A DNA stretch of 64,000 bases from Styela clava (Eukaryota > Chordata > Ascidiacea > Stolidobranchia > Styelidae). The position numbers and the translations under genes were made by a program. Location of the stretch: positions 6,200,001-6,264,000 of the forward strand of contig NC_135262.1 of the NCBI RefSeq assembly GCF_964204865.1, given 5' to 3'. Shown in pieces: positions 1,300-61,554 of this stretch (position 1 is the stretch's first letter; every line of letters begins with the position of its first letter). Under the pieces are notes generated by a model. The model saw only the letters and a list, made by a program, of their open reading frames with translations, ran no database searches and had not been told where the DNA came from.

Positions 1300-4200
1300 A
1301 TGGCTAGCGTTGTGCAGATTGTCAAAGTCGAAAAGGGAAAAGTGGTTTTGGATTCGAAATCACTCAAAAAGATCTTGAAAGATGCAAATGTCGGAGATAA
1401 ACCTGTTGCAATCGTATCTTTGTGTGGCGACTATGGTAAAGGAAAATCGTTTATGTCGAAGCTATTTTTACAGTATTTAGGTTACTCCAAGGTGAGTTCG
1501 TGTATTTATCAACGACTTAAATTTCTTTATAGTTGTGCTATGTCTAAACAGAGTTTTTGTGAGTTCCGAAAACGGCCTTACTTTCGAACGTTAAACTACA
1601 TGTACGTTGGAGCGACAAAAGAGAATAAGTCTTCTTCAAAATTATTCTCACGGCGTTGTCATCATTAGAAGAAAAAAAAAAAGAAAAAAAAATTAAAATG
1701 CTAAATTATAGAACGAATTGGGATGCCTTTATACAGTTTTATTGCGCCTAAGCCTATCTAATGTATAGGAAGTGAACTATATGCTTTAACCCTTATCATC
1801 CTCGATCCTAATGCAAAAAATGCTGTTGCAGGGGCACAGAGTCAGCGAAGAAGCCACTGATTGGTTGGACGACAAGATTGGAGAAGATTCCATACAAACG
1901 GATGAGCCTGGAATATTTCTGTATCGAAATGTTCATATTGTGAATAATGTAAGAACATAGTAATATTGAAAATTGATTTATGAATTGTAATCCATGAATA
2001 AATAGCGCCAAAAACATGGGCCATGGCATAAGAATGTCATGCCATTGATATTTTGAATAAAAGACTTCAATAACGTCGAAATTCTTGTGTCGAAAAAACT
2101 TTGCACGAGAAATCTTTACTTGAAGTTTGTACCGGGATCTGTTAGAACTGCCAACATCATAGCTATTTCTCTCAAAATCGATCATTCCGATAGATCACCA
2201 CATCTGCCAGTGCTATAAGAAGAGCTGTTAGAAATGATGCTGGAATAGAATAGAACTTTGTTCGTAGATAGTAACCGTTCCATGGAAACGTATTCATAAA
2301 TTGTTTTCATCTGCACCAAGCTTTACACATGTTTCGTAGTTTTCCAAAGTTCGCCTGATTTTTCCAATCCCCTGATTTTTTACAGACTGCTGTATTGATG
2401 ATGCAAGTACAAGGAGCATTTTCAGCAACGCGACAAATATGTGTCGACATCTTTGCTCTTGCTTCATTGATAAGCTCTGTTCAGATTCTGAATTTACATT
2501 CTCAAATGCTGGGAAATGATGTTGAATTTGTAAAGGTAAATATATCGACACAAAAATTAATTTCTTTGTTTAAAATTGTGTGAATTTGCATTATTTCATT
2601 ATATACTGCAGGGGTGGCCAACACGTCGATCGCGATCGACCGATCGATCGCCACGTCTCGAGTAGTCAATTGCGTCTGATGTTGAGTGAATTTAAGTGAA
2701 ATACCCACCCAAAATTGCCTCAAACCAGTTGTGTGTTTTACAGCGGGAAGAATACAGTACTTTAAATGCGCAAAATACAATTTACACATACAGTATTTGA
2801 TTCTGGTCAAGCCCAATACATAGGCTTACCATACGTCCCGCCGTCCCAACAAGTCAGCCAAGAAGCCCGCTTTTGCCATCAGCCATTCAGCATAACACAC
2901 GAACATGTTCTCGTTACTGTTGTTGCTGTGTAGCGCAACGCTAGCGTACTTACTGAAGGTGAATGCGTCATTTTGTTTGTTTCGTTATTTCCCGCTAACA
3001 TTGTTAGCGAACGTATCACATGTAAAATCAACTTTAATTGGTCCTGTTCGGACGTCCGAGTAATGTAACAGTGAACAACGTTTTTTTAAAGGTGGTATCT
3101 ACAGAAAAGCATGCTTGGGCGAATAAGTAAATTCTCAATGCCTGAAAACGGCAGACTATTTCATTATTCTTTATTCCTTCTGCTGTACATAAATAAAATC
3201 TAAATTCGGATCATTTGTATCGTTAGCGGCTATTCCTTTCTGTTTTTCGAATTGAACTCGATATTTAGACATAGAATATGCGCATGAACTCTCGATGACA
3301 CTATGATCAACAAAGACAGCCGGGATGGCTTAAATGTAGGCCTATGTAGTAAAATCGGAAACTGTAAAGTTACAGGAGGCGTCCCGCTTTGAAGTCAAAA
3401 AAATATGGTAATCCTACCAATAAAGCATATTAACAAATACAAGTCTTTCCGCTGCCAAGGTTTAAAAATGAAGTGCCAAATATCGCGTGTCTAGAGTCTA
3501 GACTGACAAACGATGTTACAACAACTTCTGCAGTATTAAGTTATTGTCTTACTCCAAGAGTAGTGCGAAGAATTTTATTCGCAATAGTGCCAGTGGCATC
3601 AAAATGCCCAATCTGTTCTAATTCTAAGCAAGCGAATAATCGCATTTGAAGTATATTGTAACCGCTAGTATTGCAGTATAATTCAGAGGTGGCCAACCTG
3701 CTTTCGACCGCGATCTATTTTAAAGATTCAGTCGATCGCGGTTGATAGCAGGTTGGCCACCCCTGAATTATACTGCAATACTAGCGGTTGATGTGGTGTG
3801 TTTGAAATTGTTACCAAATTATCTGCCAAACGTGATAATGAAATTTAACTTTATTATAGTTACAGCAACACACAGGCAACGTATGACAGATTTTAATGCA
3901 ATATGGTCTCAATTTGAAGCTGTTTTAATATATATATAATGTGTCCATAAAGTGAAAAAACAATTTCTGATTAAAAACAGCAAACCCGGTTTAGATATAT
4001 AAGTGTATGACATTGGTAGGTCGTTCCACAATTAGAAATGAACACACACGTATATAGGTTAATGGGGCACATGGATTGCTTTATGATTGAGGCTGATATG
4101 CAAAATAGCTAACACAGAATGTGAGATTATCAGACAAATGTTTAAACAAACGTAAAATTCAAATTGAAGTAAAATGAACGTATTCTAATCCTACTACCAG

Positions 4201-7200
4201 GTTAAAGCAAATTTATTTACATAATAAATAGGTTGCCAAAAACAAATATTTTAAGGCAAGCAATTCGTAAAATTATTTTCATACTTTGTCTGCATTTTGA
4301 AATCCCCTACCACTCAAATGTTTTCATTGTAAAATATTTTAATATTGACTCATTAGCAATATCCTACCTTATATGTGCAATAGATCAAGCAAGACAAGAC
4401 TGTGTGTATGTTTAAACTTGGTGTTTGAACTAAAACGATAGGCGGTAATTTTTCTCATGAGACGCTGCCGTCTGGATAGGAACAAACATAGATTTTTATT
4501 TAGAATGTCAATGACTGATTACAGTGAAATGGTGCGAATGTGGAGATACGAAATCGTTTTATCTCTCGTATATTGCATATCCATCTAGATGCCACGCCTA
4601 CAAATATAAATTACCTTGACATTATTGAAGTAAATTATAAATGTGAATTTGAATTGTTTTTGAAGATGAAAAACGTGTATAAATATTGTACTCGTACGTA
4701 ACATCTACAAAAGAACAGAGTTTTGAAGGTCAATTTTTTACCCAATGACTAGAACTTCTATTTTGAGCAAGTTAATTTTTTTTTGTTTCAGGAATTTGTT
4801 GAAAGAGCAAGGCCAATAGCACCAGACCTGCAAATGTTTGAAAACTGGGGCCCAGTAAGCATTATATTTTCTAATCTCTACATATAAATAAAGTTTACAG
4901 TCGATAAGACTTTTTTTCTTCTACTCAAAATATAGGAGTGTTTGGCGAAAGTATCATAGAATGCCTTTAGCGAGAATGGATATTTGGAGAAGCCTCCTGT
5001 TTGATATCTTTACTTTGGAAAACCGCAAAAAGCTTTTTTCGCAAAGCTACTGGATTCCAATAGAACCCGATTTCCATTATGATGGATTGCAGAATGCTCA
5101 CCTATAGTCCCGAACATAAAAATTTCTTGCATGCCATATAAACATGGTCAATATTCACTAGGTCGCGCAGACATTAGGGCAATATGTTTCTACCTTTATA
5201 ATATGTTCGTGGGAAAATCAAATTACAAGTATATATTGACATTTTTACCAATATACAAAGCAGCAGTGTTATGTTGAACTCAATTCAACATATACATTTA
5301 CCGAAGTAAGGATATTTGTAAATAATATATGTATATATATATATATATATATATAATGGAATTTTGGTCAAGTAAATGTAGCCTGAGAGAAATGATCGAA
5401 AAATGATAAATGACTGACGAATTGAACAGCATGCCCATTTTATGAATTACCGGTATGCAGGTCTACACGTTCAATGATTCCTTTATGTCTACCAATCTGG
5501 TCGAATATCACATTTAAACTTGTTTCACAGAACTTTTTGTTCCTGGTGAGAGATTGGCAACACCCAATGGAGAAAAGTTTTGGTAGAAAGGGAGGAAACG
5601 AATATCTTAACAGTGTATTGAAAAATATAAAGTTTAATAAAGATGAATGGAAAGATTTCAAATGGTACATGGAGCAACTTTTCAAAACTGTGAATTGCTT
5701 TCTTATGCCACATCCGGGCATGGGAACTCAAGGAAAAAGAAACGTGGAAACCGACGGTTTGTAAATTATGATGATATAGCTACTGTAATTTGCACATTTG
5801 TAACTATAACCAATTCGATAATAAAGTTTTCAATTTTTATGCTCAAATTTTTGTAGATCTATCTGCTCAGTTCAGGGACAATCTGCAGTCACTCGTCTCC
5901 TCGGCGCTTGGACCAAAATTTCTTCAAGCTATTGTAGTCCGACAGGATACACTATCTGAGGAAAAGTTTTTTTCTCATGTTGAAAAATGTGTTAAAGAAT
6001 TGTCCAAACCGAAAAAAGTAAGTTTTTTTCTGTACTTCAGTATTGTTACAATCACGATGTCTGGAATATTTTGCTGTTGTGTATTTTATGTTCATCCCGT
6101 TGAGAAATAGATCGCCTCATTTAAGACGAATTTTGAAGTTGAAATAAAAAAAATTCATACCAAGTATCATATCAATATCAGTCCAAATTTTCATCACACA
6201 TGATAAATGATAAAAAGTCTAACGGCTGGGGTATATAAAACACTTGGTACATACGTTGTGACTGAAGGCTTTTTGTCCCGAATTAAAAGAGCACAGTAGC
6301 TGTATATGTATATCACTGTCCTGTTGCCTAGATTTTCGTTCGTTTGGTCGAAAAGAGGTGGAAAAACTCTACGAAAAATGATTTACACACATATATATTT
6401 GTTTCAGGCACCGAAGACTGATGTTGTGAAAATAATTACGGTAAGTGGTGATGACGTAACTGACGTAATTTTGTGACATCATGTAATCCTTGGGATAAAT
6501 GTTTCTTCTGACAATATTTAAATTTAAAAGTAATAATTAAATCCAATATACTGGGTTTGTTGCAAGATGACTAACTTTTGTTTTTGCAGGGGAACCTAAG
6601 AAAGGATATTCAACCAAAACCACAATCAGGTACTTTTGTAGCTTTCATTGTTTATATTATTTAGTGTTAAATGAACATAAACAATATTTCGAAAAATTAT
6701 AATGTTTTTACCAAAACCTCTCATACATATGTGTACTCATATATAATATTATATCCAATTTTGTATTCAACTTTTCTCTCTCATTTTATCCCAACACCAG
6801 GGTTGGGCAAGGTTTTTGGACCAAAAAATTTTGCCCACCTAGACTGACAGGCTATGTGAGTGTGATGTGAGAAGTTACATAATATAAACAATATTATCAG
6901 TATCACGAGAATAAAAGTGGGAAACAATAGGCTTCGTGCCAAAACTAAATTCAATCGCAATCTTAACAAATTTCTTGAGATATTTTTTAGCTAAAACATC
7001 CAGATTTGGTTTTAGTTTGGTTGTGGCAGAATCAGGCGGGTTAGATTGAATTACACAATGGGCCGGTTTTGGCCCGCGGGTCGTAGTTTGCCCATGTCAG
7101 ACCTAGTGACACCCCGAAATAAATCAAACTTTCTCGATAATTTTATATTCGATCCGTTCGCAATTTTAGTGTCAAAACATTGCGCTGTGAAAGTAATTGA

Positions 7201-10200
7201 CATTGAAGACGGAAAAGTTATTCTGAATTCCGAAGAATTTGAGAAAGTTCTCAATCAACCTGAGATTGGAAATAGACCAATTGCTGTCATTTCAATTGCT
7301 GGAACTTTTCGGAGAGGAAAATCATTCATTCTCAATTTTCTTCTGAGATACGTTCGTAATAAGGGTGTAAGTAATAGAGAGATTTCTCTTATGGGGTATT
7401 GATGCAATGGCCGTAGTTGTAAAATCAATGTCAAATCTTCGTCTCTCATATAGGTAAACACCATACATTTTCCAAATTCAATTCCATTTTCGATTTACAT
7501 TTTCCAAATTGCGTTCATTCAAAAAAATAAAACAAAAAAAAATTACGTTTAAATACTGTTTATTTGACGTCATCTGCTGCTGTATACAGCAATTTGGGTG
7601 TCGCTGACACGTTAACTTCATAGTTTATTCGCGGCTCCTAGTCTATTGCAGCCGATTTATTGTACGTACGTCTGTTATTTTTTTCTCTCTCAATTGATTC
7701 ATTTTCTTTTTTTTTCTTTGTACAGTATTTCACGCACAACCAGGGATGGCCATTTCCGAATACTAAACTATTCCGAATACATTCTAAAATAATGTTTTCG
7801 AATCTGGAATTCCGAATACATTCTAAAATCGAAAATAACACATTTTTGTTTTAGTTGATTAAAACCCAGTAAATTAGGAAATAAGCTTCAATAGAAATAT
7901 CAGAATGAAGCCACAAAATTTTGAAGGAAGAGCTCGTTTTAAAAATAATTTTCAAAATTCAGGTTAGGTTTTATTTTCCAAGTCTATTGACAAAAATACT
8001 ACTTGTATTCAGATAATTGTGTATATTTTCTGAGAGTAATAAAATTTATTGGCAATACAGGCAACAACAATCGAAAATCCATTATGCCTTTAAAGATTCT
8101 AATATTTAAGCCTAGAGTATTCTACTACTTACCAGTATATTTGTATATTAATTTATGTGAACCATATTGTTATTATGTGTAATATATTGTTGTGTTTGGA
8201 ATTAAAAATAAATTACCGTAGTAGAGAATAGATGACCACCACTACCAGCGCGCAGCCAGGATTTTCGAAATCGGAAATTCCCATTGCCGCCTGTAACACC
8301 CACCGCGATTCCGCGCTCGTTAAAAGAGCCGTCTTTTCAGCGTATAATGATCATTCTGTTACGTAAAATATTCAATTCATGACAACTACGAGATTATAAA
8401 ATATCTTTATATATTAATTTAATGTGTCCAACGTAACTCGCGGTTGCTTCTTCTTACGTCAAAAACGAAACATTACTATTCGGTCCACGGCGATCCGTGA
8501 CCTAAAATTACGAGATACACTGCCTGATGTATTTAATTTTAATACGTATTTTTGCAATCTTGCCAACTCGTTATCGCCGTTAGAAAAATCTCAAATAATT
8601 ATATAAAATCCTATTAGGTGTAGAGTATAATTCATTTCATACAATGAATATACATACAAAGTTTAGCAGTAAATTAAAAAATACATATTCATCGCCGCGA
8701 TTATGCCACCTGTTAAAAGAGTCGACTTTTACAACAAATAATATAACAACGAATATATATTTTTCTGTTGTGCAAAGTGATGAATTCGTGACCGACACGG
8801 GCATATTTAAAATGTCTTGCTTTATTAATTTAATTGTCTTCAATTTAACTTGCGGTTGCGTCGACAAAATAAAATCCTCACCACTCTTATATACCATTGC
8901 AATCCGCGGTCATAAAAATAAAAACGTGAGGTAAACTGTCCGATTAAATATTGTTTTGATACGTATTTTGCGAATTCAGCAAATATTTAGATGTACTTGT
9001 TAACAGTGACTCCACTCGATCGAAATGCTGCCACTCTGATTATTTTTAGATAAAACTGTTCGAAAAATCCATAAATATGCTGTAATATCTCAGAGTAAAA
9101 ATTATTTCATCAAAATAAAATTGATTGAATATACTTTAGATTAGTTATATTATATACATCCTCACAACCCGGGAAAAAGTCGCGTTTCAAACCTTGTATC
9201 GTGTTAACACGAAAATATTCGACGGCAATTTAAAGTAATGGATAATCAGGCAAATCCCGCCATCAATTAGTGACGATATGTTTCTAAACGCCGACCAAAC
9301 ATAATGTGTGCCAGAGGCACACGAAATTTTGCGATTTTCACAGCCTAGAAAAGCGTTTTTTAAATTTTCGCGGGCCTCAATAAAACTTATATTGTTTACG
9401 GTTTTATTTTCAGTATTTCAAATTGCCGCTTTTCAATCAAAAAGTTGCGTTGTCTTTAGAAACTCGCCGCCGATGAACGTATTTACCAGATTCACAATTC
9501 CGTGCGTGTACAAAAATAAAATAAATGTTATCGTTATCGTGGAACAAATTTGTGGAAAATTTTCGTTTTAGAGAAAATAACACAATTGTAAGGGCGTTTA
9601 CGGGCCTAAATAACACGTTACGCTGATGAGTGATGAAAACAATCACGCGCAAGTTTTTATCGAGAATGTTTTCATTTAACGGAAACGTCTTGAAAGCGGC
9701 GTCGAAAATGTGTGACGTCACACAAATATCCGATATTCTTATGAACGTGAATTCCGATATTCGAATGACTAGATATTCGAATACATTCGAATACTTTATT
9801 CGAATTGGCCATCCCTGCGCACAACGGAAATAAATATCTGAATCCATAAATTGGAAATAGGTTTTCGTCCCATCACTGCTCTGCACGAGAATGAGCAATC
9901 TCAATTTATACTCTGCGCACAATTTTATTGCAAATAAATTCCCTGATTTTCAAAATACTAAACAGTTAATTCTATACAGTACTTGCGAAAAGACGATGAA
10001 TGGATAGGAAATAAAAGTGACAGAATAGCCGATGGGTTCGAGTGGTGCAGCGGAAGTGCGGCGCACACGCAAGGAATAATGATTTTTAGCGAACCATTTA
10101 TTGTAGCTACACCAAAAGGGGAGGTTCGTTGATTGATTTTAAAAATTCCTTTCTATTTTATCTCCGATTGAATCGATCTGAATATGTATTCAAATATGAT

Positions 10201-13200
10201 TGCTCTTGGTTTTTCGAATGAAAAACATTTGTAGTTTCTAATATGCCAACCCAACCCATGTGTTTTTGATCATAAGTGTTGTCTATCACATTATGTATTT
10301 TGATGCATCATGCAAAAATGAATCCAATACAACATAAATATAACAATTTTTTTCGTTCTGTGAGATGGTGCACTCCAAACAACTTTGAACAAACAGTGAT
10401 TGAAATGTAGGAATACGATAAGCTTCAATTTTGCTGAAACCGGCATATATATATACTTTAGATTTATTTAACTTATACTTTTTATCACACTGTATGTTTG
10501 AGATAGGACTTTTCTTTTATAAAAAGTGAAGCAACCCATAATCAGTTTCTTCACTTCAATTAAAACCAGGTTGCAGTTCTTTTCATGGACACTCAAGGTC
10601 TTTTCGATTCCAATACGAGCAAAACCCAAAATTTAATGATATTTGCTTTCAACACTATCATAAGTTCAGTTCAAATTCTCAATTTATCGGGAGATATCAA
10701 CGAGCACGATTTGGAATTTCTACAGGTAAGTGGAAAATGTGTTTTCTTTATGTTTCCTATATATTGTAGTCCATACACCCATTTAATATGTGGACGGTTT
10801 ATTAATTATTCAATATCAGTTTATTATCTCAAACGCACATTAAAAAAACGCATTTCAGAGGTAAAAGCTATTTCTTGTTTCAGTTCTTCACGGAATACGC
10901 ACGGAGAATTACCCAGCAGAAGTCGGGCGGAGCTTTTTTGCAGGTTAAATTTACGCTTGGGACTCTTTATTTTTCTATTTCATTTTGAAAATGACTGTGT
11001 CTAGGATTTTGTTTCATGTATATATATATTCGATTAATACTAATGTTCGATAAAGAACCACAGACGACCCAAAGCTCTTTTTTTATGACCACACATATTT
11101 TTTTTAATGAACTGAAATACTGAGTCTAAGGGTAAGCGATTAGCTGTTTTACTAGCTTTATCTTAGAGACTATCAACATGTAACTGGGGACAATATAATA
11201 TGTCACATGAAACGGCACATCGATAGGTCGTTGAAACATATGAACTAATCATTGCATTCTGTTATATCCAGGGATTAAAATTCCTGATACGAGATTGGCC
11301 CCATGTAAATGATCACGAGTTCGGAAGCAATGGAGGAAAGGATTATCTGGAAAAGTACATGGAAACAAAAGGCAAAATTGAGGAATTAAAAGTGGTGCGA
11401 AAATACATTTCTTCAGCTTATCGCAATATTAGCTGCTTCCTAATGCCACATCCCGGACTGACATTGGCGCAAGGACTCCCATACGATAAAGCAACCGTGA
11501 ATGGTAAGATTTTGAGCAAATTATAGGTTTTATTTCGCAATAGCCGGACCAATTTCCTGCGTCCCTGGTAAGATTTGTACAGACTTCAGACTGACAACGT
11601 GTTGGTTTAGAGCAGGGCTCGGCAACCTTTTGTTGCTCGCGGGCCAAAATTAAGGGTTGCAAGTCTTGGCGGGCCGCACATATTTTTAGAAAGGTAAAAA
11701 CCGAACGGACGGCCGATGAATCACAATTTTTTCACACGGATCATAAGTTGAAATTTCAGATTTAACGGCGCGCTCAGTCGTTTTATTGAAAGAAAAAAAA
11801 TTACAAATGACATTTAATTTAAAAATGGGGTGACACTTGTTGCATCACGCTTGATAGCTTTTCGACATCAGGCGGCAAACTGGATGAAGTCAAGATTAGA
11901 ACATTTTCTAAATGGACATCACTAATCCGAGTTCTCAGATTATTCTTTGTAATGATCATTTTTGAAAATAATTGTTCGCTAGTACTTCCAAACATCGATG
12001 TGAATTTTTTACGCGGGCAGGATTTAGGGGACGGGACGGCTCAATTCGTTACTCCGTTGGGATGCGATCTTAGCTGTACCTTTGGATATTCAGAACATTT
12101 TAATGATTCCGATTTACCAACGCGCTTTTTGTCTATTTTGATCTAAAACAGATATTTACCTAAATCTATGATACGTTTTACGTTACTTATAATACGTACG
12201 ACTCGGAAAAAGCGAAAACAGGCCAATATTCATTTTTCTAACACACAACTGTTAAAACTATATTCTGGGAATTGTCAACCTACCTGTACGTCTTGATATC
12301 AGCAGTTCTTCGGCAGCACTGGGTCAATGCTGCATATGATCCGCATCACACCACGTTGGGTTCGCAGCGCTGTTTTTGTGTTATATGCCACTCCTTGCGT
12401 GTTAATTCTAGTCTATTTACTAATACATATGTAGGATATTTTCATGATCAAATTTTTAACTACTTTTTATAACAGACATTGATGAAAAATTCGTGCAGCA
12501 GCTAACTCCACTTGCTGAATCTGTACTTCATCCAGACAATCTCATCGTCAAGGAATTTTCGGATGGAAAACCTATGAATTATCGCGGTTTGTACGCAACA
12601 GCGACGAAATGTGCTGACGCCTTTGGAACTATTGATACCGACATTAAAGTTGACGACATATTGGAGGTGTTTATAATTTAGTTATTTGTGAATTTTGAAT
12701 ATAAATGAAATGTACTGTACATGGTAAATCAATGCGCCAACCAATGAGGGATAGTGTGAAAAATGAAATAGTGAAAACATTGCTATTATCGGGGTTTCAA
12801 ACTATGACATACAAATAAAAACTGAAAATCAAGTGAGCGATGCTAAAATATATGGGCACGATGGTCAAAACGAAGGTGTGAGGGTATGTAATCTGTCACA
12901 GTAGACTACCGGTACCCACTACTAACAGGAACGCGGAACCACCACAATGTGCTCATTTTTGATGACGTCATTGCACACAAAAATCGATTCCCATAGAGCC
13001 CAAAAAGAATTTTGAAATAAATAAAATAGCCCTCTAACGAAAAAAATCTTTAAGCAATGACAATTTCGAAGCAATTGGTTCAGTAGTTAATGAAAGATAA
13101 ACTATTTTTATAACAATAAAAAGGAAAATACCAACAAAAACAACATAACAATCCACAGGAACACTTCGTGTCCAATGAGGTGCGACAGAGCCTGGGCAAA

Positions 13201-16200
13201 ATCTTAATTTGTTTTGCTAAAATTAAAGAGGTGATATAAAAATATTCATGGGTTGTTTGTTAGAAGTAAAAGGTCACGCTACAAACTTTGTTGTTGCATA
13301 ATGATAATAAAAAACCCATACAGATCTCATCCGAACAAATTTCGATACTCCCGTTCTATGTTACCAGGTTAGGATATAATGGTATTCCGATTTTCCTTGT
13401 TTAATTTTTAATACTAGTTCGGGGACTGTCTGTGTTTGCCAAGTAAATATACCCTTACCTATAGGTTTCAGTCCCTTCACACAACTTGATGTAAAGTAGG
13501 CGAACAAAATTAGTTACCTCCCTATTGGTACACAGACTTCGGGAACCCAAATTTCTATATACTTATATATCTAATTAATAATAATAATAAGTATATGTAT
13601 TCAGGTAATTGCGAGTGCCGAAGACAATGAAATGAGAAGAGCTTGTTTGAATCATTACACCGAGCTGATGAGCAAAGTATGGGAGTTCTTTATTGTGCGG
13701 TGAACTTAGCACATGCTACCTAATGAAAGATTTATTGATTGTTATTTTATTATAGTACATTGTAGGATGTGCTAGCGACACTGAAGCAAAGCTGAAGCAT
13801 AACAAGGCGAAATCAGAAGCAATCGGTAAATTTTACTCTCGTGGTAAAGGCGGTAAAAATGAAAAGCGTGTGCAATCAAGAACTCACGCGGAAGGCGAAA
13901 TCGATAAAGCCTACGCGAGATTTCTCGCAAAGCTGGGATACAATGAAGTATGTAAAATTACTGTCGCATGCTTAAATCTTTGTTCTTATTAAATATCTGC
14001 TTGAATCAAGATTACAAAAACCCAAGCAAAAGTTTGAAATCACTTTGAAGTAAAGTCAGAAAGACGGGTGGGACCATAGCTAATAGAACCCAGAGAATTA
14101 AGTATTTGTTCATAATGTTTTTCAATATTTAAGATTTTATCATTGCAAAAGAGTAACCAATCCACAAAAGATTGAGGGAGCTCACTGAGAATCGAAAACG
14201 TTTATTGGTGTATTTGTATTATCTGTTTATTAAAGAATGAATTAATATTTTTGGACGTGAACATTTACAGACTAACTAATCATTGTTGAAGTGTGTGACA
14301 TAGATATAAGCCTGTGGCATTTTTGTCAAAGTATATTCGAACATCGTTGATTATACATAATACATTACTACTGCCTACATTTAGCGCGTTCCGTGAAATG
14401 CACTTTGTCAAATATTATTTAAATCTCTTTTTTCGAGGCGAAAGAAAAACATGACATGGTTTCCGGCTATCTTGATGCTATTTCGTCATACAAGAATAAA
14501 ATGTCAATTGTGAGTCTATTACATATTATACAAATACATACATAGCCTAAAACTTATATTTTAAAAATACGTTTATACTTTTTTTATTATTGTGATATGA
14601 AAATTTTCACAATGTAATTCGTTCATATGTTTGAATATTGTGATTTGTGATACTAAGAAAAGCAATAGGAACTTTGAATTAACCCTGTTAACTAATTGCA
14701 CTGATCTAATGGATTTACAAAGTTTGAATCCAACAAAATTTGTTTGTCATAGAGGCCCTATAGGTCATAGCATAGGCTACTATATTTGTGAATTCAGCAT
14801 ACCATAGGTTTTCAGGGTTTTTGGTTTCAGCACATGGTTACACAAACCAATTCGAAAAAGAAGAATTTCACCCACATCAGTATGAAACAAAAATGCGGCG
14901 TACAAGTTTTGCACTAAAGTAAATAGATTTTGAAAATTATAATCAGCTTCAGTATTGAGAATAGCAAACCTTTCCAGTATTCAGAATATTCATTTGAAAC
15001 CCATGCAACGGGAAAAACAACACATTTAAAGACGAACGGGCCGCATAACATTCGCATTTGGCATATTTCCCCGGGCCGCACAATTTTCCCTTATGGGCCG
15101 CATTTGCCTCGCGGGCCGCAGGTTGCACACTCTGATATAGGCTAGTATATTTGTAAATTCAGCATAGCATAGGTTTACAGGCTTTTTGGATTTAGCCAAG
15201 TCACACATACTAAATGGGAAAAGAACTTATGATAAATTGCAGCCACAAAAACCATGCAAAAATGTTCGTATTGAGCTGGGCTGAAAATATTGAAACATTA
15301 ATGCGACGTATACTTTTTTCACTAAAGTCAATTAATTTTTAAAAATACTTCAAACCCATGCAACGCAAAAAACAACACGTTCAAAAACACTTACGTTAAT
15401 TTCATGAAACGTCGTCGCTTGATTGCATGGCAGTCTAACTCTAACTTCCAGTGCCTAAGCATTCTGTTTACAATGTAATATTGTTTAAATCTTTATGAAA
15501 CTAAAAAATTTATGGAACCAGAATTAAATACAGAAAACAGAGGTTGATCCCCTTTCTCACGAATATACGATTTGCGTTGATACAAGTCCCGCGCAGAGTT
15601 CTCATTACCACTTATCAGAGGCCGTTTCCGAACCGCGGTCGATTTTTATTGAAGATGATTTTTAAACTTCGTCAGTAGAAATTATGTAAATAGTAAGCGC
15701 CAAGATACAAATAAAGTCTTCAAAATATATTTTACGCGAAAATTCCAATGACTAAATTCTGCGGCGTATACGTACTGGTTTACCGGTACCGTCTAATACA
15801 CAAACATTCTCTAGAGAATAAAATCCATCGTTGGGAGCTCCAGGTCATGTCTTTCAAAAACCTAAAGACTAACCAACACTACTAAACTTTAAGTTATCTA
15901 AATAAATGTTACGTAAAAACTCACCCTTTGTGACTAAATATATTCCCTAACAACTATCGTTGCGGAGCTCCAGAAAATGTTTTTGAAAGACCTAACGACT
16001 AACCTACACCACTAAAAAACTTCAGTTTAGGTGTGGTCATAAAGCCGGTGTGTGCCGGTGTAGAAATACTGGATTAAATTAAGAAAATGGCACAACCTAC
16101 CATTCATATGATCAAGAGTTTCTATTACATAAACAGTTATGTGAAATCACTTTTTATGTACCGGTAGCTAAGTTCAAAAACAATTAGGATACTGCAGACT

Positions 16201-19200
16201 ACAATGTAGACCAGGGGTCACCAACGCGTTGCCCGCGGGCACCAAGTCGCCCGCGAAGACCATATGAGTCGCCCGCAGGTCTGTTCCAAACTAAGCTTAA
16301 TAACGGCTCTTATAAGTAAGCTACATCAATTAAATTTTGTCCTTCTATTTTAGTATAAATCACACTTATATGGAACTGAGAATAACACTATATTGATTAT
16401 TGTAACCATCAACCTTATTTTTATTTGACCCCAGTAATGTGACGGGTCAATTAACACTCTTCCAATTATGACATCACACTGAGATCACTTTCCACGAACC
16501 CGCGCTTTTTCTTGTCCGTTGGTTAGCGGAGCAGTAATAATACAATTATTGATTCCAAAGAAAAATCCATCATTTTCACGATGAAGGGTAGGTGTATATA
16601 TTTATACCACCATAAAAACAGACTGCGTGTGTCTCATTAGTGGGGCGATTTTAGCGACGGCAAAGCCGAGAGATATTTCACATCTTGTCACGTAATCTTC
16701 CGCGCTAACTACCCACTGGTCAGCACAGTACGGACAGAAAAGAAAAAGCTCGCGATTCAAACCATACAGCAATCCTATTTTACGAGACCATCGTTTGTTT
16801 CAACCTATCCTTTCGAATCAACATTTTTGACAAACTCAGGATAGGAGGAGATTTACATATTTATCCCGGAGGAGAAGATAGCCGATAGGACGGCTTAACC
16901 ATATGACAAATCAGGAAGGAAGCCTTAACCGACCAGCGGTTACCTGAACCACCCAAAGGCGGCGAGGAGTCCAGCAATCCTTTCGCACATAACTATTCCC
17001 GCATGGGGTTCTAACCTGCGAACCTAACGCTTAACACGATGGGCCATAGCGCCGCGACTCACTCCACCATGAACAAACATGGAACACGCCTCACTGATGA
17101 AAATCTGCAAGACTCGGTCAGAGTTACAGTGTCAAGTTACACGTCGGGGTATAATACTATGCAACATTTGATAGTACAACTGTTAAGTCCATTTTATCTT
17201 AGACTTGTGCAGAGTGTTTGTAAATAATTCAAGTACATTGTTGTTTCCTATGAAAATCAATTTAACACTCAGTTTTGAAATATGAGTGTTATTGATAGAA
17301 ATTTATTTACAACGTTGTGATAATCGTTTGATTTCCTGAAGAATCCTAAAGTTTATTAGTGTCTATACTTCACTAAACACCAGTAATTATATCAATAATT
17401 GAAGCTTAATCGAGCAACTGATTTTTTTGGAAGTGTACATTGAACTGGTAGCCCGCAGCTTAATCTGTACCCTAAAAGTAGCCCTCGGCTTCGAAAAGGT
17501 TGGTGACCCCTGATGTAGACTATGTTGCTATTTTCGAAACGCGGCAGATAAGCACTAATTTTTAGCAAATTTTTACCCATAATTTTCTCGCGAACACTTT
17601 TATTTGGGGCTATTTCACATTTGATACGAGGTACTAGTAGTAGTAGGCCTACAGTTTTATGATATGCTAGGATACAGATAGGCTCAAGAGGAACAACATA
17701 CCACTTCCTGCAAAAGTCTGATTTTCTTTCCAGTCCACTTGGATAATTTGGGCGCAAGATAGATCCACTCTCCACCAAATTAGTTAGGTAAATCCACTCG
17801 ACTAACGTTGCAGTTGAATTTTCGCTATCCAACCGTCTTCTCAAATCGCGGCCTCGCGTACAAACTACGAATAGGCCGGAGCTGAATTTAGTGTTGCCAA
17901 ATAGTGAACAAGCATAATTTCTGATATTGCAGTCAGATAAAACATTTTTTGTCCAAGATCAGAATTAGGCATAAGATTAAATTCTGACATTGGAATCAAT
18001 TCTACTTAAATCCAATTTTAACATTTTTAAAGTTTTGATATTGGTCTAAAATTAAAACAATTTCACTTTTGATGGTCGAAGCACCATATTTGGCTACTGT
18101 ATTTAACAGTAACAGTAAGGTAATACCAGCAAAGGATAAAATTCACATTGTTTCCACAACTCAGCTTGAAGATAAACCAGTACCACCAACTGAATTCGAT
18201 ACTTTCAACGAAACATGTTGGAAAGAGGCAATGGGCAGTACGGAAAAATATGGCAACGGCTATTCAGATCTCTCATCCGAAGATATGAAAAAAGAGAAAA
18301 CTCGTTTCTACGAAAACTACAAAGAACAAAATCGTAATAGATATGAAGCGACTATTGAAAGAGTAAGTGTGACTGTTTCCATAATCCCCGTGAACTATAA
18401 ATTTGGAGAGATTCAAATCGATGTGTTCATGTCGATTCATGTTATAATAAAATCAAACAGAAATCAGAATTTAACATCCAATCCAACTCTCCTAGATCCT
18501 CACTTAGAATACTCAGTCATAAATTATAGGTTGAGCTATACTTGGTCGGAAGATTGCTTCCACACGAATAGAGTAATTTTCTAAATTCTAATTTTAGTTG
18601 GGAATCATGGGTTGCATTGGCTTTGCGAAAGCCATTCAAAACAAACTTATTAAATGCATGTCTGCATTATGAAGTGATTTATAGTAAGTAAGTTGGTCTG
18701 GCGAACAAAATTTTATTCGTTTGATTGCGTCACGACAACAATCCCTCACATAAGCTAAATTACTATTTATCTTTTGTACAGCTTGAAATGCCGGGAAACT
18801 ATATGGAAATGTGTCGCCATCATAGCACAAATGAAGTCGAAGACGAGGTACATTTATTAAAAACTCACAATTACGAGCAATACCACAAACGTTATTCAAT
18901 TATACTGTTGATTCTATTTTTAAACGTTTGCCAGTTTAAAACAAAAATTAGGGTGTTCTACTTCCTTAGTTACTGAAATTGCAAGCAAGAGAAATATTTT
19001 TATTGGATACGTGAGCATTGAATACTGTAGTGTATAATATACACCGACTCTTTTGTAACGACAGCAAAGGCATCAAAACGAGACTTGACTATTCAAGTAC
19101 TTTGATATATGATTTAAATATATTTTCAGAGTGAGGATCAAGATTTATATGCCACAATAAACAAAGTCGTCGACCAATACGAAAAAAAGATCAACGAGGT

Positions 19201-22200
19201 ATTTTGGTAGTTGAAGTTACATAAATATATATTGTCAGTAGAGCGCGTACTGTGAGGCCGCAAAAAATCTGAAGAAATTAATACAATGCGTTGTTTATGT
19301 TTTTTCATTACGTCTGCTGTTTTATTCGTAAAAATAATTTTGTATTTATAGATACGAGAAGGTGGAGAAGTAAGTGAAGATTTTGTTCGAGAAAAAAGAG
19401 GTTCGCTTTACAGATCAGCCGTTCGGGAATTCAATAGTAGTAGTATCAACAGAAAAGGGAACTTTCGTTATTACATAAACATGTTGGAAAAAGCTGTGCA
19501 AAAAGTGGAACCTGTCCGAATTGCGCCAAGCAAAGAGGTAAGCAATGGTATTTTTATTCGAAATTCATGAAATTTGTATGAATCAGCAATGAAATAAAAT
19601 GCAGAGAATAAGATCAGAACATTTTGCTAATATATTTTACGCTTTGGATTTTTTTTTCACTTTTCAAATACTTATCAGATCGCCAGCAGCCTTTGAGTGC
19701 GGTATATTAGACCAGATATAGTCAAAATCCCTCTACCTTGTTCGTCTGCACAGTAACTTTCTGTCTTCGTTTCATCAAAACATTTTTTTGTTGTTTCAGT
19801 GGATTATATTTACCACTCTAGAAATTGGAGCATTTTAATAACTCCTATGCTGAACGTATTTTGCTATGTGGAATTCATCTTCACCTATAGGTGTATAACT
19901 TGAAACTTTTAGGTTTTGTGCCAACCGCAATTTACTAACATTTATGCACAATTCTGACTTTCTTCGATCAAACGTGCCTAAATAACACAGATTTGCTCAT
20001 TTAATTTTAAACTAGACTCCTTGTCAGATTTATACAATTTCCCCTTCTCGTGAACGACTGTTTTTTCTTCAATATTCTTCGATATGAACTTTTTATTTTA
20101 GCGTCTCCTGAACATGAAACTGAAAAATTATGTTGCTGATTCTAGTCGACAGTTTGATCAAGAAATGGAGCAGGTAGATGGCTTTATGCGAACACTCGGC
20201 AATGTTCCACTGTAGAGATCCACGTTATTGTGAAATATTCCAATCCATGTCACATTGTCCATATTCTGCCTCAAATACAGATATACAAACAACTAATGGC
20301 ACAACCCTTTGCTCTTTGTTCTTTTTTGGATCTCTGACTTTTGTAATCAGTCGTTCTGTCTGTTTATATGTCTAGATTTAGCGCCTGAATGACTGGACAG
20401 ACCCAGATTCAATTTTTCATGGGGGTTATCTCAATTCATTTAAAGTCGGATAAATGTTGCGTTTTCATCACAGCAGACAAACGGGGAAATTTACAAATTT
20501 TCCGTTAACTAAGTCCAAAATTAAAATTTCTAGAAGACGCGGTATTAATATTTCTGGACTGAATTTAAGCTTAATCCATGGTAATCCTCTGGCGGGACAG
20601 ATCCTCGTCAGTAAAATTATTACGCATCGTGCGCTTACGATATCATAATACAAACTGTCTTGGTTTCAATGTAGGGATGATTTCTTTTTGTCAAATTTGG
20701 GTACTCAAGATCAAGTCCACGAATCCAAGTTCATGAAAACAAATAACTGGCTCACTTTTTTCATCCCCTGGATAAATATATATGTGAATCCTAATAATAC
20801 CGTTTTTTGCACGACATAAGTTTAAAACCGATAATGACTTGCGCCTTCTGATGTTAGAATCCAATTTTTTCAGATTAATGGGCTTTTCATTGGACCTGTA
20901 GCTTTAAATGCAATGGTGCAAAAAGCAAAATTAAAATTGTGTGAAAAATTCAACGACAGAACAAAAGACGATGAACCAAGAAATGTTGTAGAGCGGCATC
21001 ATAACGACTTAATTCGTAATTTGGACTCAAAATGGGAGTTACTGAAAAAGGAAAACGAAAGAAATCGCGTATGTTACATTCTATATCACCCAGGTCAACT
21101 GCAGCATGTTCTATGGGTACCGTATATAAATAAAAGTAATCTTGATCGTTATCGTTTGAGATGGAAATAAAACTTTAATGTCTGTGTAGATTAACATAGC
21201 TGAATTACTGCGCGATTTGTATTATATTTAGTTTAACATAAAGAAATAAATCGAATAACCAATAAAATCTCAATAAGATATACAAATTAAGTCGCTCCAG
21301 AAGTATGTGTTCCAATATGAAGGTAACTAATTTTGTTTGCCTACTTTACATCAAGTAGTGTAACGGGGCGGAGGCAGGAGGTATATTCATGTGGCTAACA
21401 CAGACAGCCCCGAACTCGTAATAGAACTAAATAAAACTCGTAATAGAAGAAAAAACAAAATAAAATTATGGCCTAACCCTAATCTGGTACAAATGGTACG
21501 GGAGCACCCAAATTAATTTCATTCTAAATAACGATATCTAAATTTTTAAGATACATGGAATTTATTCTTTTTGCAGGTTCATTACGAACTCGCAAAAAAC
21601 CAACTGGAAATGAAGTTGGTGAAACGATATCACTCTAGCATGGATCAGGTGAGCAATTTTTATCGTTGTATATTATTCAGTCAAGATCAAAGAGGTTTGA
21701 AACTTAGAACCTGTTAAAAAGCCATATCGCAGATAATTTCCTATTTAAAATATTTGGCGCTCCAGAAATGTGTGTACCAAAATGGGTGTAACTAATTCTG
21801 TTCGCCTATTTTACACCAAAGTGTGTAGAGGGACAGAAGCCTATGAGCAGGGGGTATATTCACTTGGCTAACACAGACAGAACCAAAATGAATTGAATTG
21901 GAATAAAACTATTATGGGATTAACACTATACTCACACTACGGGAGTACAAAATAATCAATATATGAAGTAAACTATTATATTAATGATACCGTAAAATTC
22001 AGCTTTTACAGAGCGGATATATTGTGGAAAAGAAATTGAAAAAATATCACGAAGATTTACGTCAAATTTTACTGCAAGATGCTGAAAACGAAGAAATACC
22101 GCTTTACGTCGCAAATGGTGGCAATAGAAATAGTTACGTCTCATACCAACAGTTCATAGGTTCCTTGCAAGCAAAGTTAAATGGTCTCTATGAGGAGAAA

Positions 22201-22263
22201 AAAACGTGGAATAAAAAGAACCATGGAATGATCGTTAGAGCTCTCGTTAATTTTGTTGGTTAG
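1300..22263 (+). CDS. Tandem-GTPase atlastin/GBP-like protein, 25 exons
   Basis: Exons read from GT-AG sites: 1300-1491, 1832-1948, 2386-2535, 4792-4854, 5531-5756, 5857-6017, 6408-6440, 6590-6629, 7170-7366, 9980-10123, 10570-10725, 10884-10943, 11272-11503, 12476-12666, 13605-13676, 13756-13947, 14438-14509, 18165-18362, 18782-18847, 19130-19198, 19352-19537, 20102-20173, 20874-21068, 21577-21648, 22012-22263. They join without a phase clash into about 1135 residues. Two GB1/RHD3 GTPase domains (about 1-303 and 328-654) precede a long helical region (655-1135). Atlastins and GBPs are dynamin-like GTPases that dimerise; atlastins fuse ER membranes. The start is the first ATG of the frame, with a stop upstream and an acceptor-like site at 1261-1267. 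It is not a standard atlastin: that has one GTPase domain, one helical bundle and a membrane hairpin. The least certain exons are 7-8 (linker) and the start of exon 18. Function is inferred from family only. Confidence 0.82.
2609..3765. mobile_element. hAT-type terminal sequences bounding a non-coding segment in intron 3
   Basis: The left end reads CAGGGGTGGCCAAC at 2609 and the right end is its exact inverse, GTTGGCCACCCCTG, ending at 3765. The style (CAGGGG... ends) is typical of hAT non-autonomous elements. A clean 8-bp target duplication is not visible, although the flanks share a TATACTG-like string. No transposase frame lies between the ends. A third, slightly mutated copy of the end at 3686 forms the palindrome listed separately. 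Confidence 0.5.
3660..3789. repeat. Near-perfect long palindrome built from a transposon end and its flank
   Basis: The left arm (about 3660-3714) and right arm (about 3729-3789) are inverse copies with few mismatches around a spacer of about 15 bp. Each arm contains a transposon end plus about 25 bp of the same flanking DNA, including the TATTGCAGTATAATT string in opposite orientations. Confidence 0.8.
5329..5356. repeat. (AT)n microsatellite in intron 4
   Basis: A short run of alternating A and T, beginning ATATGTATATAT and continuing as AT units, 175 bp upstream of exon 5. Confidence 0.8.
7741..9817. mobile_element. Non-autonomous hAT element with 8-bp target duplication
   Basis: The element starts CAGGGATGGCCA and ends TGGCCATCCCTG, and it is flanked on both sides by CGCACAAC (7733-7740 and 9818-9825). 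The terminal and subterminal parts carry repeated GAATACATTC/TTCGAATA strings. Short open frames inside show no transposase similarity, so I call it non-autonomous or internally decayed. It lies within intron 9 of the tandem-GTPase gene. Confidence 0.85.
11613..12000. mobile_element. hAT-like fragment with one recognisable end
   Basis: CAGGGCTCGGCAACC at 11613 followed by GCGGGCC-type sequence is the usual form of a hAT MITE end. I could not find the inverse end before exon 14, so the right boundary is a guess and the copy is probably truncated. Confidence 0.35.
13346..13548. repeat. MITE M1 copy (about 200 bp) in intron 14
   Basis: First of many copies of a recurring sequence, called M1 here. 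It runs from an ACTCCCG end, through ACCAGGTTAGG, TTCGGGGACTGTCTGTGTT and a GATGTAAAGTAGGCGAACAA core, to a TTGGTACACA...GG end. Full-length copies have imperfect terminal inverted repeats sharing AGTGTGTGTACCA. Confidence 0.8.
14772..15395. repeat. Diverged direct repeat around a hAT end in intron 17
   Basis: Sequence from about 14772 to 15037 recurs from about 15136 to 15395 (shared ATAGGCTA.TATATTTGT.AATTCAGCAT start and CAACG.AAAAAACAACAC end). The DNA between is rich in GGGCCGC blocks and ends GGTTGCACACTCTG, the inverse of a hAT-style end. It looks like a local duplication separated by a transposon remnant. Confidence 0.6.
16212..17512. mobile_element. Non-autonomous hAT element with 8-bp target duplication
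   Basis: The ends CAGGGGTCACCAAC and GTTGGTGACCCCTG are exact inverses over 14 bp. Both flanks are ATGTAGAC (16204-16211 and 17513-17520). No transposase is evident. A tRNA-derived SINE remnant lies inside at about 16838-17058. The element sits in intron 17 of the tandem-GTPase gene. Confidence 0.9.
16838..17058 (-). repeat. tRNA-derived SINE remnant inside a hAT element
   Basis: The sequence matches the SINE copy at 57219-57555 over long blocks, including ACCGACCAGCGGTTAC and GGCGAGGAGTCCAGCAATCC. On the minus strand a tRNA-like head is still visible, but its B box has lost the standard GGTTCGAATCC form and part of the tRNA-like region is missing. Confidence 0.65.
21293..21511. repeat. MITE M1 copy in intron 23
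   Basis: Same family as the copy at 13346, in the opposite orientation: GTCGCTCCAGAAG start, CTAACACAGACAG core, GGGAGCACCC end. Confidence 0.8.
21756..21947. repeat. MITE M1 copy, partly deleted, in intron 24
   Basis: Starts GGCGCTCCAGAAATGTGTGTACC and ends CACTACGGGAGTAC. The AACTCGTAATAG...CCTAACCTGG portion is shortened. Confidence 0.75.
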
Positions 22264-31106: not shown

Positions 31107-33996
31107 ATGGCAACTAAATTGATAAAGAATTGTTTAACGATATTGATATCCTTTTCATTTTGTGGAATCATATACTATTTGTTTAAAATTTCTGCCAAAG
31201 AAAGGTATTATATAAATTGTATCGAGGATTACTTATTCATGATATGAGTTTGAGAACGGATGGATTTCTGTCTAAAAATCAGTGTCACAAATTTATACTT
31301 TATTGAAATTGGAAGTGAAATTTAAAATATATTCAGTATGCATATAAGGAATTATATAGAATTGCTATGGTTTTGTGCAGGGGCGCAGGGGCCAAACTTT
31401 TTTGCCGCCCAGTCAGTGCTAATTTCTAATAATGATGCCCCTCATACCCCACTTTAAAAATAATTCGGGGAATAAAGGTCAAGTAATAGTGAAATGTTTG
31501 TAATAATACTTAAATCATCAAACTAAGCAACAACCTCACATGTATATCAAAATCAATTATCTACAACGTGCTGCCCGATGTGGCTGCCCCTATGGCCCAC
31601 CCCTAGGCTCGGATTGTTGGACCGTTCCAGCAACCATTGCATCTGAAATCCAATTACAAAATGCAAAAATATAAATATTTAAAACAAGGACTTTGATGTG
31701 TTGTTTCGGATATTGAATAAGAAATGTCAAAAATCCAGACGCATTTTATTTACAAGAAACTTTATTTTCTAGATATCAAAAATCAAATCTTCGCATGATC
31801 TTGTTGAATAGCGACTTGGGTGTAAAGGGATATGGTGATAAAAATGTATCAATGGAGTACACAACTGAAGCTACTTTCACTCATCCTACACATGAACCGA
31901 GAAGCAGGAAGTAAGAATGAATAAACCACTACTTCGTCGTACATTGTGGAACAAAAGGGATAAGAATGATCTGAATGTCAAGTACTCAGAAAGCCTACCG
32001 TAGCGATTGTTAGACGCCGGTCACCAAACCGTTTCATGCGTTTAGTTAACAGAGATAATAGTATATATATTATAGTATATATTGATAGTAAATTCATCGT
32101 AGCGTGACAGATATTCATGTTATTCTGATGTCAACACTCTCCAAAAAAGTTGTTAAAATTAGTTTCAAGATAACAACTGTATCTGAAATTTCGACTGCTA
32201 AATGCAATATTTTTTTTAAAAACGAAGTATTAACTAAGTCGTGTTGTTTCGGATGTGAGATAAATAATAACGGTAATCCTATCGCAGTTTTTATTCACAA
32301 GAAACCTTTTTTCCTAGATATCGACAATTAAATCTTGGAATGATTATGTTGAATAGCAGCTTGGATCTGAAGGAAGATGTCGATGTAAATATATCACTGG
32401 AATACTCCACTGAAGCTATTTTCACTCATCCTATGTCTACATTCAAACAATTTGGTCTCGAACAGATAGACTTTTTAAAGAGAATGGAATCAAAACGACC
32501 GTTGTTTAATATTACGATGGAACCTTGGAAAATTTTGCAAACAAAACATAGAATGGATTCAACAGGTCACTTTTGCTACCTATTGTATTTTAAATAAGCA
32601 AAACTGTTGAGTTATCGACCAGTAGGTATTTCTGAAAAAGAGTATACATGCGAATTCAATGTAAATTACCGATCATATTTTTCAGATTGTCGATGGCCAA
32701 TGATTATTGCAGTAAAAACAGCATACTATAGGGTTGAACAAAGACAACGTGTAAGGAAAACATGGGGTTTCAACAAATTCTTCAATGGAGTTTGTTTAGA
32801 TGTTGTTTTTGTTGTTGCAAGCACATCAACCGCAGAATCGAATGTTAAGTTAGGAAAAGAAGAATCGGAGCATGGCGATATTTTACAGATTGAATTGGAA
32901 GAAACCTATCGGTAAGTTTTTAATTTCCGAATAACGTAAAAACACCTTCCGCCGTCGTGTTTTTTGTCTCGTGCAGTATTTCAAAGTGAATTTTGGTTTC
33001 CACTTGAGTCAAATATTAAAAAGGACGACACCTAGAAATTTAGATGTTTTGCTACATATGTGGGCCATACTTCATGTAGTATGTCAACAAATAACATCCG
33101 CAATTTTATACGTTCTTGGGTACTCCCGTAGTGTGTGTACCAGGTTAGGGTTAGGCCATACTCTTATTCCGATTTTCCCCATTTTAGTACTATTACGAGT
33201 TCTTGGACTGTCTGTGTTAGCCAAGTGAATATCAGTCCCTTCCATGGGTTTCAGTCCCTTCACACAACTTGATGTAAAGTGGGCGAACAAAATTAGTTAC
33301 CTCCATATTGGTACACACACCTCCGGAGCGCTCGTTCTTGTCGATTTATATTGGGTTTCTTTCTGTAATTTATCAATTGAAAACTAAGTGTTTTCACGAA
33401 GTCAATTAAATTTGTGATTCATTCCAAATAAACTTTTTCAAATACAATATTTTAACAGAAACATTGGATTAAAAGCCCTGGCTTCGATGCAATGGGTGGC
33501 GGATAATTTTCCAAGCAACTGGATATATTCATCTGGAGATGATGACATGTTACCAGATTTCCCTTGTTTATTCAAAAATATAGAAAAATCAATACCCGAA
33601 GAAGGGAAATTTTCAACAAATTCCAGCAATTCTATCTTGAATCATCGATTAAACACGAAAAATTTCCCAATATTTTGCGGACATGGATATAGACCTACAT
33701 CAAAACCACATCGATTTGAGAGTAAATGGCATGTCAGCGTAGAAAAATATCCCTATGACTATTATCCGCCGTTTTGTTTGGGCGGATTTTATTCAATGTC
33801 AGTAAAGCACGCCAGCGCAATTTACTCTGTTTCAAGATGGTACCCCTATTTTGATTTGGATGATGTTTGGATAACAGGATTTATGAGACTACGTTTGTGT
33901 GATGTGATGACGGATCGGGATTTTGTATTCAATAAGAGGGATATTCACTGTGGGATATCTTCTATGAACGAGGTTGCAGTAAAGCACGATATCTAA
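31107..33996 (+). CDS. GT31 beta-1,3-glycosyltransferase-like, unit 2, five exons
   Basis: Exons 31107-31204, 31773-31910, 32318-32565, 32686-32911 and 33459-33996 encode 415 residues. Residues about 8-28 form a type II signal anchor (LTILISFSFCGIIYYLF), placing the enzyme in the Golgi or ER lumen. Catalytic landmarks are VRKTWG in exon 4, DDD at 264-266 (metal and UDP-sugar binding, DXD type), YPPFCLGG at 339-346, and LDDVWITG near 370-377, the place of the family's EDV.xG motif. GT31 enzymes transfer Gal, GlcNAc or GalNAc in beta-1,3 linkage; I cannot assign donor or acceptor. Unit-specific changes are Lys for Ile/Tyr-type residues around VEKYPYD and Asp in YFDLDDV. An acceptor-like CTTCAG lies about 30 bp before the ATG. 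Confidence 0.85.
33118..33332. repeat. MITE M1 copy in intron 4 of unit 2
   Basis: Counterpart of 28291-28505; both ends intact. Confidence 0.85.
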
Positions 33997-56356: not shown

Positions 56357-56365
56357 TTCTAATAT

Positions 56366-57123
56366 CTGTAAAATGTAATGAATTATTAGTTGATATCAGG
56401 CAGCTACTGGAGCAAATTCAGAAATTTTTAGCCTATAATTTTGCCTATTTTACAGAATAATAAACAGCATTCATTTGATTCTATAAATATCTGGCTTCAT
56501 GCCAGCAATAACAAAAATATGGCTCAAATGAGAATTTTATTTTATGAATTTTGGAAATTCGCAAAGATTAACTAAAAGCAGAGCAATTCGAACTTGTTGA
56601 ATGAATGAAATTAACTGTCAAAGCAACTGAAATGAAAACATACTCTGGTACTACGAATGAATAATCCTAAATATTTTAATCCTTAGCCAAAGGAATCAAA
56701 ATACAAAATTTGAAACCATTAAAATTTGAATACAAAATATAAAGACATTGAAGCAGATAACTACCATGAAGACAAGTGAATTTAAAGAGTTTTAGATTAC
56801 TTTTACTGCAGGGTAACTTTGTGATGCAAGCTATGAACAAAGTCCAAAGCTGATGGCTTTGGTGAGGAAAGAGTTTAAAAAAATCTTGGCTTGACACTGT
56901 GACAGGGGTACTTCAGATCTTGCTAGGAATTAAAAACATACTTATAACCACACAACTGATTAGTCAGAGTGGGTTAGAATCCCATGGGTAATACCGGTAA
57001 TAACTAAATAATCTGTGAACAGAACTGCTGGTCTTCCCAGTTTTCACATTCATGGAGTGGTTCTCAAAACCACACACAGCTTGCATGCATTTTTGTCTCT
57101 ACCTGTTGCCGAGAGTTAAATAA
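56366..57123. other. Upstream region of the KDM1B-like gene
   Basis: No gene is supportable. It probably holds a 5'UTR intron and promoter of the minus-strand KDM1B-like gene, since an acceptor lies at 56366-56367 on that strand. I could not identify the upstream exon. Confidence 0.45.
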
Positions 57124-61460: not shown

Positions 61461-61554
61461 TATGAGGTCTAAGGCTAAGAAATGCGAAGCCGGAAAGAAG
61501 TGAGGAGCTCAAAAGGAATGTGGAAAATCGAAAGCAAATGGACTAAAGGTCTCT

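Follow-up and report, generated by a model that had tools for sequence, protein, structure and literature searches.

A gene of Styela clava predicted to encode an atlastin-related chain with two GB1 domains, the first resembling a pseudo-GTPase

Background

Atlastins and guanylate-binding proteins (GBPs) work by GTP-dependent pairing of G domains from two molecules, and in GBPs the GB1 G domain is followed by helical bundles. Mouse tandem IRG proteins such as Irgb2-b1 are described as single chains in which a short linker connects two GTPase units; of these, the N-terminal unit is presented as fast-evolving, with positive selection reported, and as binding the parasite effector ROP5 (PMC6420625). 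The G-domain heterodimer of SMG8-SMG9 has an architecture likened to that of atlastin and GBP1, with nucleotide bound by only one partner (PMC5473137), while for the silkworm protein BmAtlastin-n one GTPase domain is described (PMC4926086). Here we describe a gene of the ascidian Styela clava whose predicted product has two GB1 domains, called D1 and D2 from the N terminus. The gene was rebuilt from the DNA letters of C17:6200001-6264000 (contig NC_135262.1), a stretch of 64,000 nucleotides referred to as the window.

The letters of the locus support a predicted single chain with both GB1 domains, and we infer transcription as a single mRNA. The strongest evidence for one chain is a collinear copy of the gene on the same contig. 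An earlier note on this DNA had proposed two GTPases in a single chain; the collinear paralogue and the open junction speak for its one chain, and the catalytic losses of D1 speak against its pair of working GTPases.

Structure of the gene

The gene occupies positions 1300-22263 of the forward strand and consists of 25 exons, with GT..AG at every border, matching phases throughout and a single stop at 22263. The joined product has 1,135 amino acids (aa) and no internal stop when exon 18 starts at 18165. This start replaced 18120, since the paralogue shares the acceptor at 18165; the query of the paralogue search and the tail queries (Pfam, genome) were those of the 18120-start model, with 15 extra residues. 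The rebuilt model agrees with the earlier note in joining all 25 exons in phase, linker exons 7-8 included, and in ending exon 8 in phase 1 with two bases supplied by exon 9 (7170). Intron phases are common to both domains (0,0,0,0,1,0) and exon sizes are alike, at 192/117/150/63/226/161 nt in D1 and 197/144/156/60/232/191 nt in D2. The features are as follows.

1300..1491, +, exon 1 (D1): start Met, P-loop GDYGKGKS, Gly at the Arg finger position; paralogue 91% at the aa level
1832..1948, +, exon 2 (D1): switch-I region shortened, aligned Thr replaced; exon absent from the paralogue
2386..2535, +, exon 3 (D1): QVQG instead of DTQG (DxxG Asp replaced)
4792..4854, +, exon 4 (D1)
5531..5756, +, exon 5 (D1): RD motif FLVRDW retained; HPG
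5857..6017, +, exon 6 (end of D1 and start of linker): 158 nt in the paralogue, phase equal
6408..6440, +, exon 7 (linker): 33 nt; 42 nt in the paralogue, phase equal
6590..6629, +, exon 8 (linker): 40 nt in both copies; the frame depends on it
about 6800..7108, +, insertion in intron 8: 309 nt, absent from the paralogue; contains the ATGs at 7058 and 7094
7170..7366, +, exon 9 (D2): P-loop GTFRRGKS including the Arg finger; first codon completed from exon 8
9980..10123, +, exon 10 (D2): switch I, Thr present
10570..10725, +, exon 11 (D2): DTQG (DxxG) intact
10884..10943, +, exon 12 (D2)
11272..11503, +, exon 13 (D2): RD motif FLIRDW
12476..12666, +, exon 14 (end of D2)
13605..13676, +, exon 15: aligns with helix 1 of the three-helix bundle of atlastin
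13756..13947, +, exon 16
14438..14509, +, exon 17
18165..18362, +, exon 18 (tail): start corrected
18782..18847, +, exon 19 (tail)
19130..19198, +, exon 20
19352..19537, +, exon 21 (tail)
20102..20173, +, exon 22 (tail): putative unit 4; the sequence gives no repeat
20874..21068, +, exon 23 (tail)
21577..21648, +, exon 24 (tail): putative unit 5; the sequence gives no repeat
22012..22263, +, exon 25 (end of tail and stop codon)

The collinear copy and the junction between D1 and D2

The second copy lies at about C17:6.646-6.664 Mb on the opposite strand, ~0.45 Mb from the window gene. It contains D1 (without exon 2 and the beginning of exon 3), both linker exons, D2 and the tail, collinear with the window. 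Matched pieces share 44-98% protein identity, and the exons, where present, 61-96% nucleotide identity. The junction exons measure 158/42/40 nt in the copy against 161/33/40 nt in the window, with phase kept and the joined frame open. The acceptor and donor of exon 8 and the acceptor of exon 9 are conserved in the copy, and the codon split across exons 8 and 9 stands for Val in both (GTG, GTA).

In-phase joining taken alone is weak evidence for one chain. The earlier note had named an in-frame ATG near 7046 from which a separate D2 might start. The in-frame ATGs able to start D2 are instead those at 7058 and 7094, and both sit within the 309-base insertion, whose ends presumably resemble a DNA-transposon terminus. 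The copy lacks this insertion and has no in-frame ATG within the 41 open codons preceding its exon 9. One chain is supported because the would-be separate start of D2 falls in an insertion missing from the paralogue.

The bridging exon was also evaluated with a splice-site model trained on the 21 other donors and 21 other acceptors of the window gene. In the window interval and in the copy interval alike, exon 8 scores highest among single exons that could bridge in phase; a bridge as strong was obtained in 0/500 dinucleotide shuffles for the window and 13/500 for the copy. Direct joining of exon 6 to exon 9, with exons 7-8 both skipped, breaks the frame, and skipping of exon 7 alone leaves it intact.

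Domains and catalytic residues

Pfam GBP (PF02263) was found twice, at residues 14-267 (E 5.5e-33) and at residues 16-286 of the second half (E 6.5e-55). It was the sole Pfam match above the cut-off, and no IRG-type GTPase domain was among such matches. Among solved structures, atlastins were closest to both domains, with a best E of 1.5e-34 for D1 and of 2.4e-67 for D2 plus the three-helix bundle, against 1.4e-12 for the best GBP chain. The alignment of D2 and bundle with an ATL1 chain covers 402 query residues (E 3.5e-66), and an atlastin-type three-helix bundle is present after D2 only.

The arginine finger, the switch-I Thr and the DxxG Asp are catalytic residues of such GTPases. Compared with ATL1, the arginine finger of D1 is replaced by Gly (GDYGKGKS vs GAFRKGKS), its switch I is shorter and carries Glu where the Thr aligns, and QVQG stands where DTQG is expected, so that the DxxG Asp is lost. 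D1 retains the P-loop Lys-Ser and the RD motif. In D2 the arginine finger, switch-I Thr, DxxG Asp, P-loop Lys-Ser and RD motif are all present. The atlastin P-loop, switch and RD motifs of a GB1 domain are thus complete in D2 and partly present in D1. Judged by these residues, D1 looks like a pseudo-GTPase and would not be expected to hydrolyse GTP. With three catalytic residues gone from D1, the "heterodimer-like GTPase unit" of the earlier note becomes a putative pseudo-GTPase fused to a GTPase.

No hydrophobic hairpin was seen in the tail by hydropathy, no transmembrane predictor having been run: the six best 19-residue hydropathy windows (<=1.78), at residues 114-141 and 463-481, all lie in the G domains. 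No GBP_C helical domain was among the Pfam matches of the tail at E<=1. With PF02263 present twice the protein is of the atlastin/GBP type, but it is not a canonical atlastin, given the tail without a hairpin and a position outside the ATL1 clade.

The GB1 family in the genome

Genome searches covered the 376.6-Mb assembly of 379 contigs. They gave no match for COX1 and a single GH6 match on contig C9 (E 1.5e-6, passing the family cut-off), which would fit a tunicate, as GH6 is not known from other animals. The GB1 family is strongly expanded, with 94 exon matches in the Pfam search that were grouped by hand into 37 clusters. A tree was made of 17 domain sequences, namely D1, D2, 14 others of the genome and human ATL1. 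The gene on contig C4 grouped with HsATL1 (100/99), and D1, D2 and the remaining genome domains fell outside this group. Among the 14 other genome domains, the nearest relative of D1 was a single-domain gene at C17:7.79 Mb (43%), with weak support (59/80). D1 and D2 share 39% over 165 columns, and their union in one clade is not rejected by the AU test (p 0.30). A recent internal duplication of D2 as the source of D1 is thus neither supported nor rejected.

Matches to the tail (26 exon matches, E<=0.001) are confined to three places in the genome, each of them on this contig. The third is a partial copy just upstream of the window (L035 5158-6787, that is C17:6195158-6196787), which comprises exons 23-25 with 79-86% aa identity; a tblastn search of the preceding 5 kb with D1 and D2 gave no G domain. 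On contig C2, a head-to-tail pair of GB1 units ~6 kb apart occurs three times (C2:9006583-9019131, 9110151-9121906 and 9241674-9253494). In the one C2 pair that was read (L041/L042), the second unit has VYTQG instead of DTQG and an ATG directly after the acceptor.

Evolutionary rates

The ratio of nonsynonymous to synonymous rates (dN/dS) was calculated between window and copy. The comparison left out codons that contain gaps or stops or that are divided between two exons, and in frame-shifted exons of the copy it went base by base in the window frame. The dN/dS was 0.52 for D1 (249/303 codons; exon 2 is absent from the copy), 0.09 for D2 (322/327 codons) and 0.36 for the tail (476/481 codons). 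The nonsynonymous rate differs between D1 and D2 (Fisher p about 1e-12), while the synonymous rate is alike (p 0.28). D1 as a whole lies below neutral (p 0.0037), and constraint is found in its exon 1 (dN/dS 0.25, p 0.009) and likewise in exon 3 (0.24, p 0.02). By these estimates from the two copies, D2 is strongly constrained and D1 weakly.

Proposed explanation and its alternatives

We give somewhat better than even chances to one gene and one chain, in which a pseudo-GTPase D1 is tied to the GTPase D2 as its built-in non-catalytic partner. Such a chain would begin with the pseudo-GTPase GB1 domain D1, followed by a basic linker (~60 residues) and the intact GB1 GTPase D2; behind D2 would come a three-helix bundle of the atlastin type and then ~390 residues of tail, in which no hydrophobic hairpin is seen. 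D2 would perform GTP-driven dimerisation and the power stroke, and D1, not hydrolysing GTP, would act as a non-catalytic partner. It may pack onto the G interface of D2, which the linker could let it reach, and set the assembly state of D2; or it may serve as a fast-changing binding surface, a bait, for an antagonist. The role of non-catalytic partner or bait is the most likely one for D1 and is favoured because the SMG8-SMG9 heterodimer has one nucleotide-free partner. A host-defence role of the tandem protein may be inferred from the expansion of the GB1 family (37 clusters) and the rate asymmetry between D1 and D2. The further suggestion is a doubtful one, that an invertebrate chordate independently evolved a tandem GTPase of cell-autonomous immunity, with a dead, fast-evolving D1 (intramolecular dimer partner and bait for pathogen antagonists, as Irgb2 in Irgb2-b1) and a conserved atlastin-type engine that has its own helical stalk.

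Several observations weigh against the one-chain explanation or its reading of D1. At the junction, the exon 9 acceptor is weak, with 1.2 and 2.8 bits against a median of 12.3 and a minimum of 1.6 for the other 21 acceptors; linker exon 8 is without constraint (p 0.66); and both copies have a minimal first exon for D2 (ATGT, donor GTACTC; 6729 and 11361). The second copy is itself broken: it is missing exon 2 and the beginning of exon 3, has lost 7 bases from exon 13, carries a stop in exon 18 and has 1 base inserted in exon 25. What it records is therefore the ancestral layout and no second working protein, and dN/dS is inflated because this copy is decaying. Exons 4-6 of D1 taken alone cannot be distinguished from neutral (dN/dS 0.68, p 0.18), and exon 4 alone gives 1.63. 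At 24 differences within D1 (exons 1 and 5 only), other family members match the window residue 56 times and the copy residue 42 times, so both copies of D1 have changed, the broken one somewhat more. The synonymous rate of the tail is below that of D2 (p 0.004). Finally, D1 has a Thr two residues ahead of the aligned switch-I position.

Some of these points would suit two adjacent genes, an arrangement that we regard as unlikely. D1 would then be a short gene in its own right or an operon cistron, D2 would have its own promoter or a leader trans-spliced at the exon 9 acceptor, and the in-phase linker would be coincidental. The shared ATGT exon fits this, and by eye an ATG directly follows the acceptor in 3/11 related P-loop exons, so that the exon 9 acceptor would fit an ancestral first coding exon. 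However, no in-frame ATG precedes exon 9 in the copy and the two of the window lie inside its insertion, which also tells against the separate D2 start considered by the earlier note; moreover, exon 8 makes the strongest in-phase bridge in both copies. Read-through past exon 6 would give D1 a short hydrophobic end with a stop at 6110, but this ending is not conserved in the copy, and a D1-only product of this kind was rejected. The interval between D1 and D2 contains five AATAAA/ATTAAA signals in the window, yet this is near chance density and the average of the introns of the window gene (3.4 per kb), and the 923-nt interval of the copy has none. A Ciona-type leader of 16 letters gave 2 exact matches in the genome vs 1 for the reversed control, a result that is uninformative if the leader of this species differs.

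Less probable still, in our judgement, is that D1 is a dying remnant, a passive and functionless leftover of a gene fusion in a chain joined now or formerly. Its three replaced catalytic positions, its exons 4-6 not lying below neutral and the loss of exon 2 from the copy's D1 point that way. On the other hand, the six exons of D1 all have an open frame in the window copy, exons 1 and 3 and D1 as a whole are constrained, and the P-loop, RD and HPG motifs are retained in both copies. An assembly artefact from misjoined copies might be suspected where family copies are clustered and repeats dense. It is very improbable here, since one misjoin would not yield the order of D1, linker, D2 and tail twice, ~0.45 Mb apart on opposite strands and with 61-96% nucleotide identity by exon.

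Other features of the window

At 53405-56395 (-) there is a 997-codon stop-to-stop open frame without introns, with matches to zf-CW (E 5e-7), SWIRM (1.8e-6, just under the cut-off) and Amino_oxidase (2e-80). We take it to be like the histone demethylase KDM1B/LSD2, and it is perhaps a retrocopy. Three near-identical 192-codon open frames lie at 33418-33993, 38237-38812 and 49826-50401 (+); the one at 38237-38812, the only one scanned, matches Galactosyl_T (5.9e-14). It looks as if a glycosyltransferase exon was recently duplicated here. At 59455-61508 (-) there are fragments of a hAT-type transposase (DUF4371 4.4e-16, Dimer_Tnp_hAT 4.1e-8).

Comparison with known systems

The earlier note knew of no animal protein described with this layout. 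By titles and abstract beginnings, no tandem GBP/atlastin protein was found among the open-access papers listed, tunicate proteomes being outside this search; the kind itself, however, is known. G domains that occur in tandem or as a pair and of which one is dead have been described, and such a pair in an atlastin-type chain would be new.

Like the atlastins (ATL1-3), the predicted protein has a G domain, D2, that aligns with ATL1 together with the three-helix bundle. It differs from them in its two G domains, in a tail without hydrophobic hairpin and in its position outside the clade of HsATL1 and the C4 gene. It likewise differs from BmAtlastin-n, for which one GTPase domain is described (PMC4926086). 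As in guanylate-binding proteins, a GB1 G domain is followed by a helical part, but the sequence is much nearer to atlastin, the tail has no GBP_C match and the G domains are two. In contrast to the two separate proteins of nonsense-mediated decay (NMD) that form SMG8-SMG9 (PMC5473137), pairing here would be between D1 and D2 and is putative. If the proposed explanation is true, a dead G domain beside a live one fixes one partner of the pair, possibly making a one-sided, regulated device.

A parallel in layout is Irgb2-b1 (PMC6420625), with tandem GTPase units, a short linker and a fast N-terminal unit; for Styela clava, the gene model and its paralogue speak for a predicted chain of two such units. 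The domains of the present chain are of GB1 type, unlike those of Irgb2-b1, and positive selection is reported for the mouse protein only. If the parallel to the mouse tandem IRG proteins is true, the repeated origin of tandem immune GTPases with a fast first unit becomes testable.

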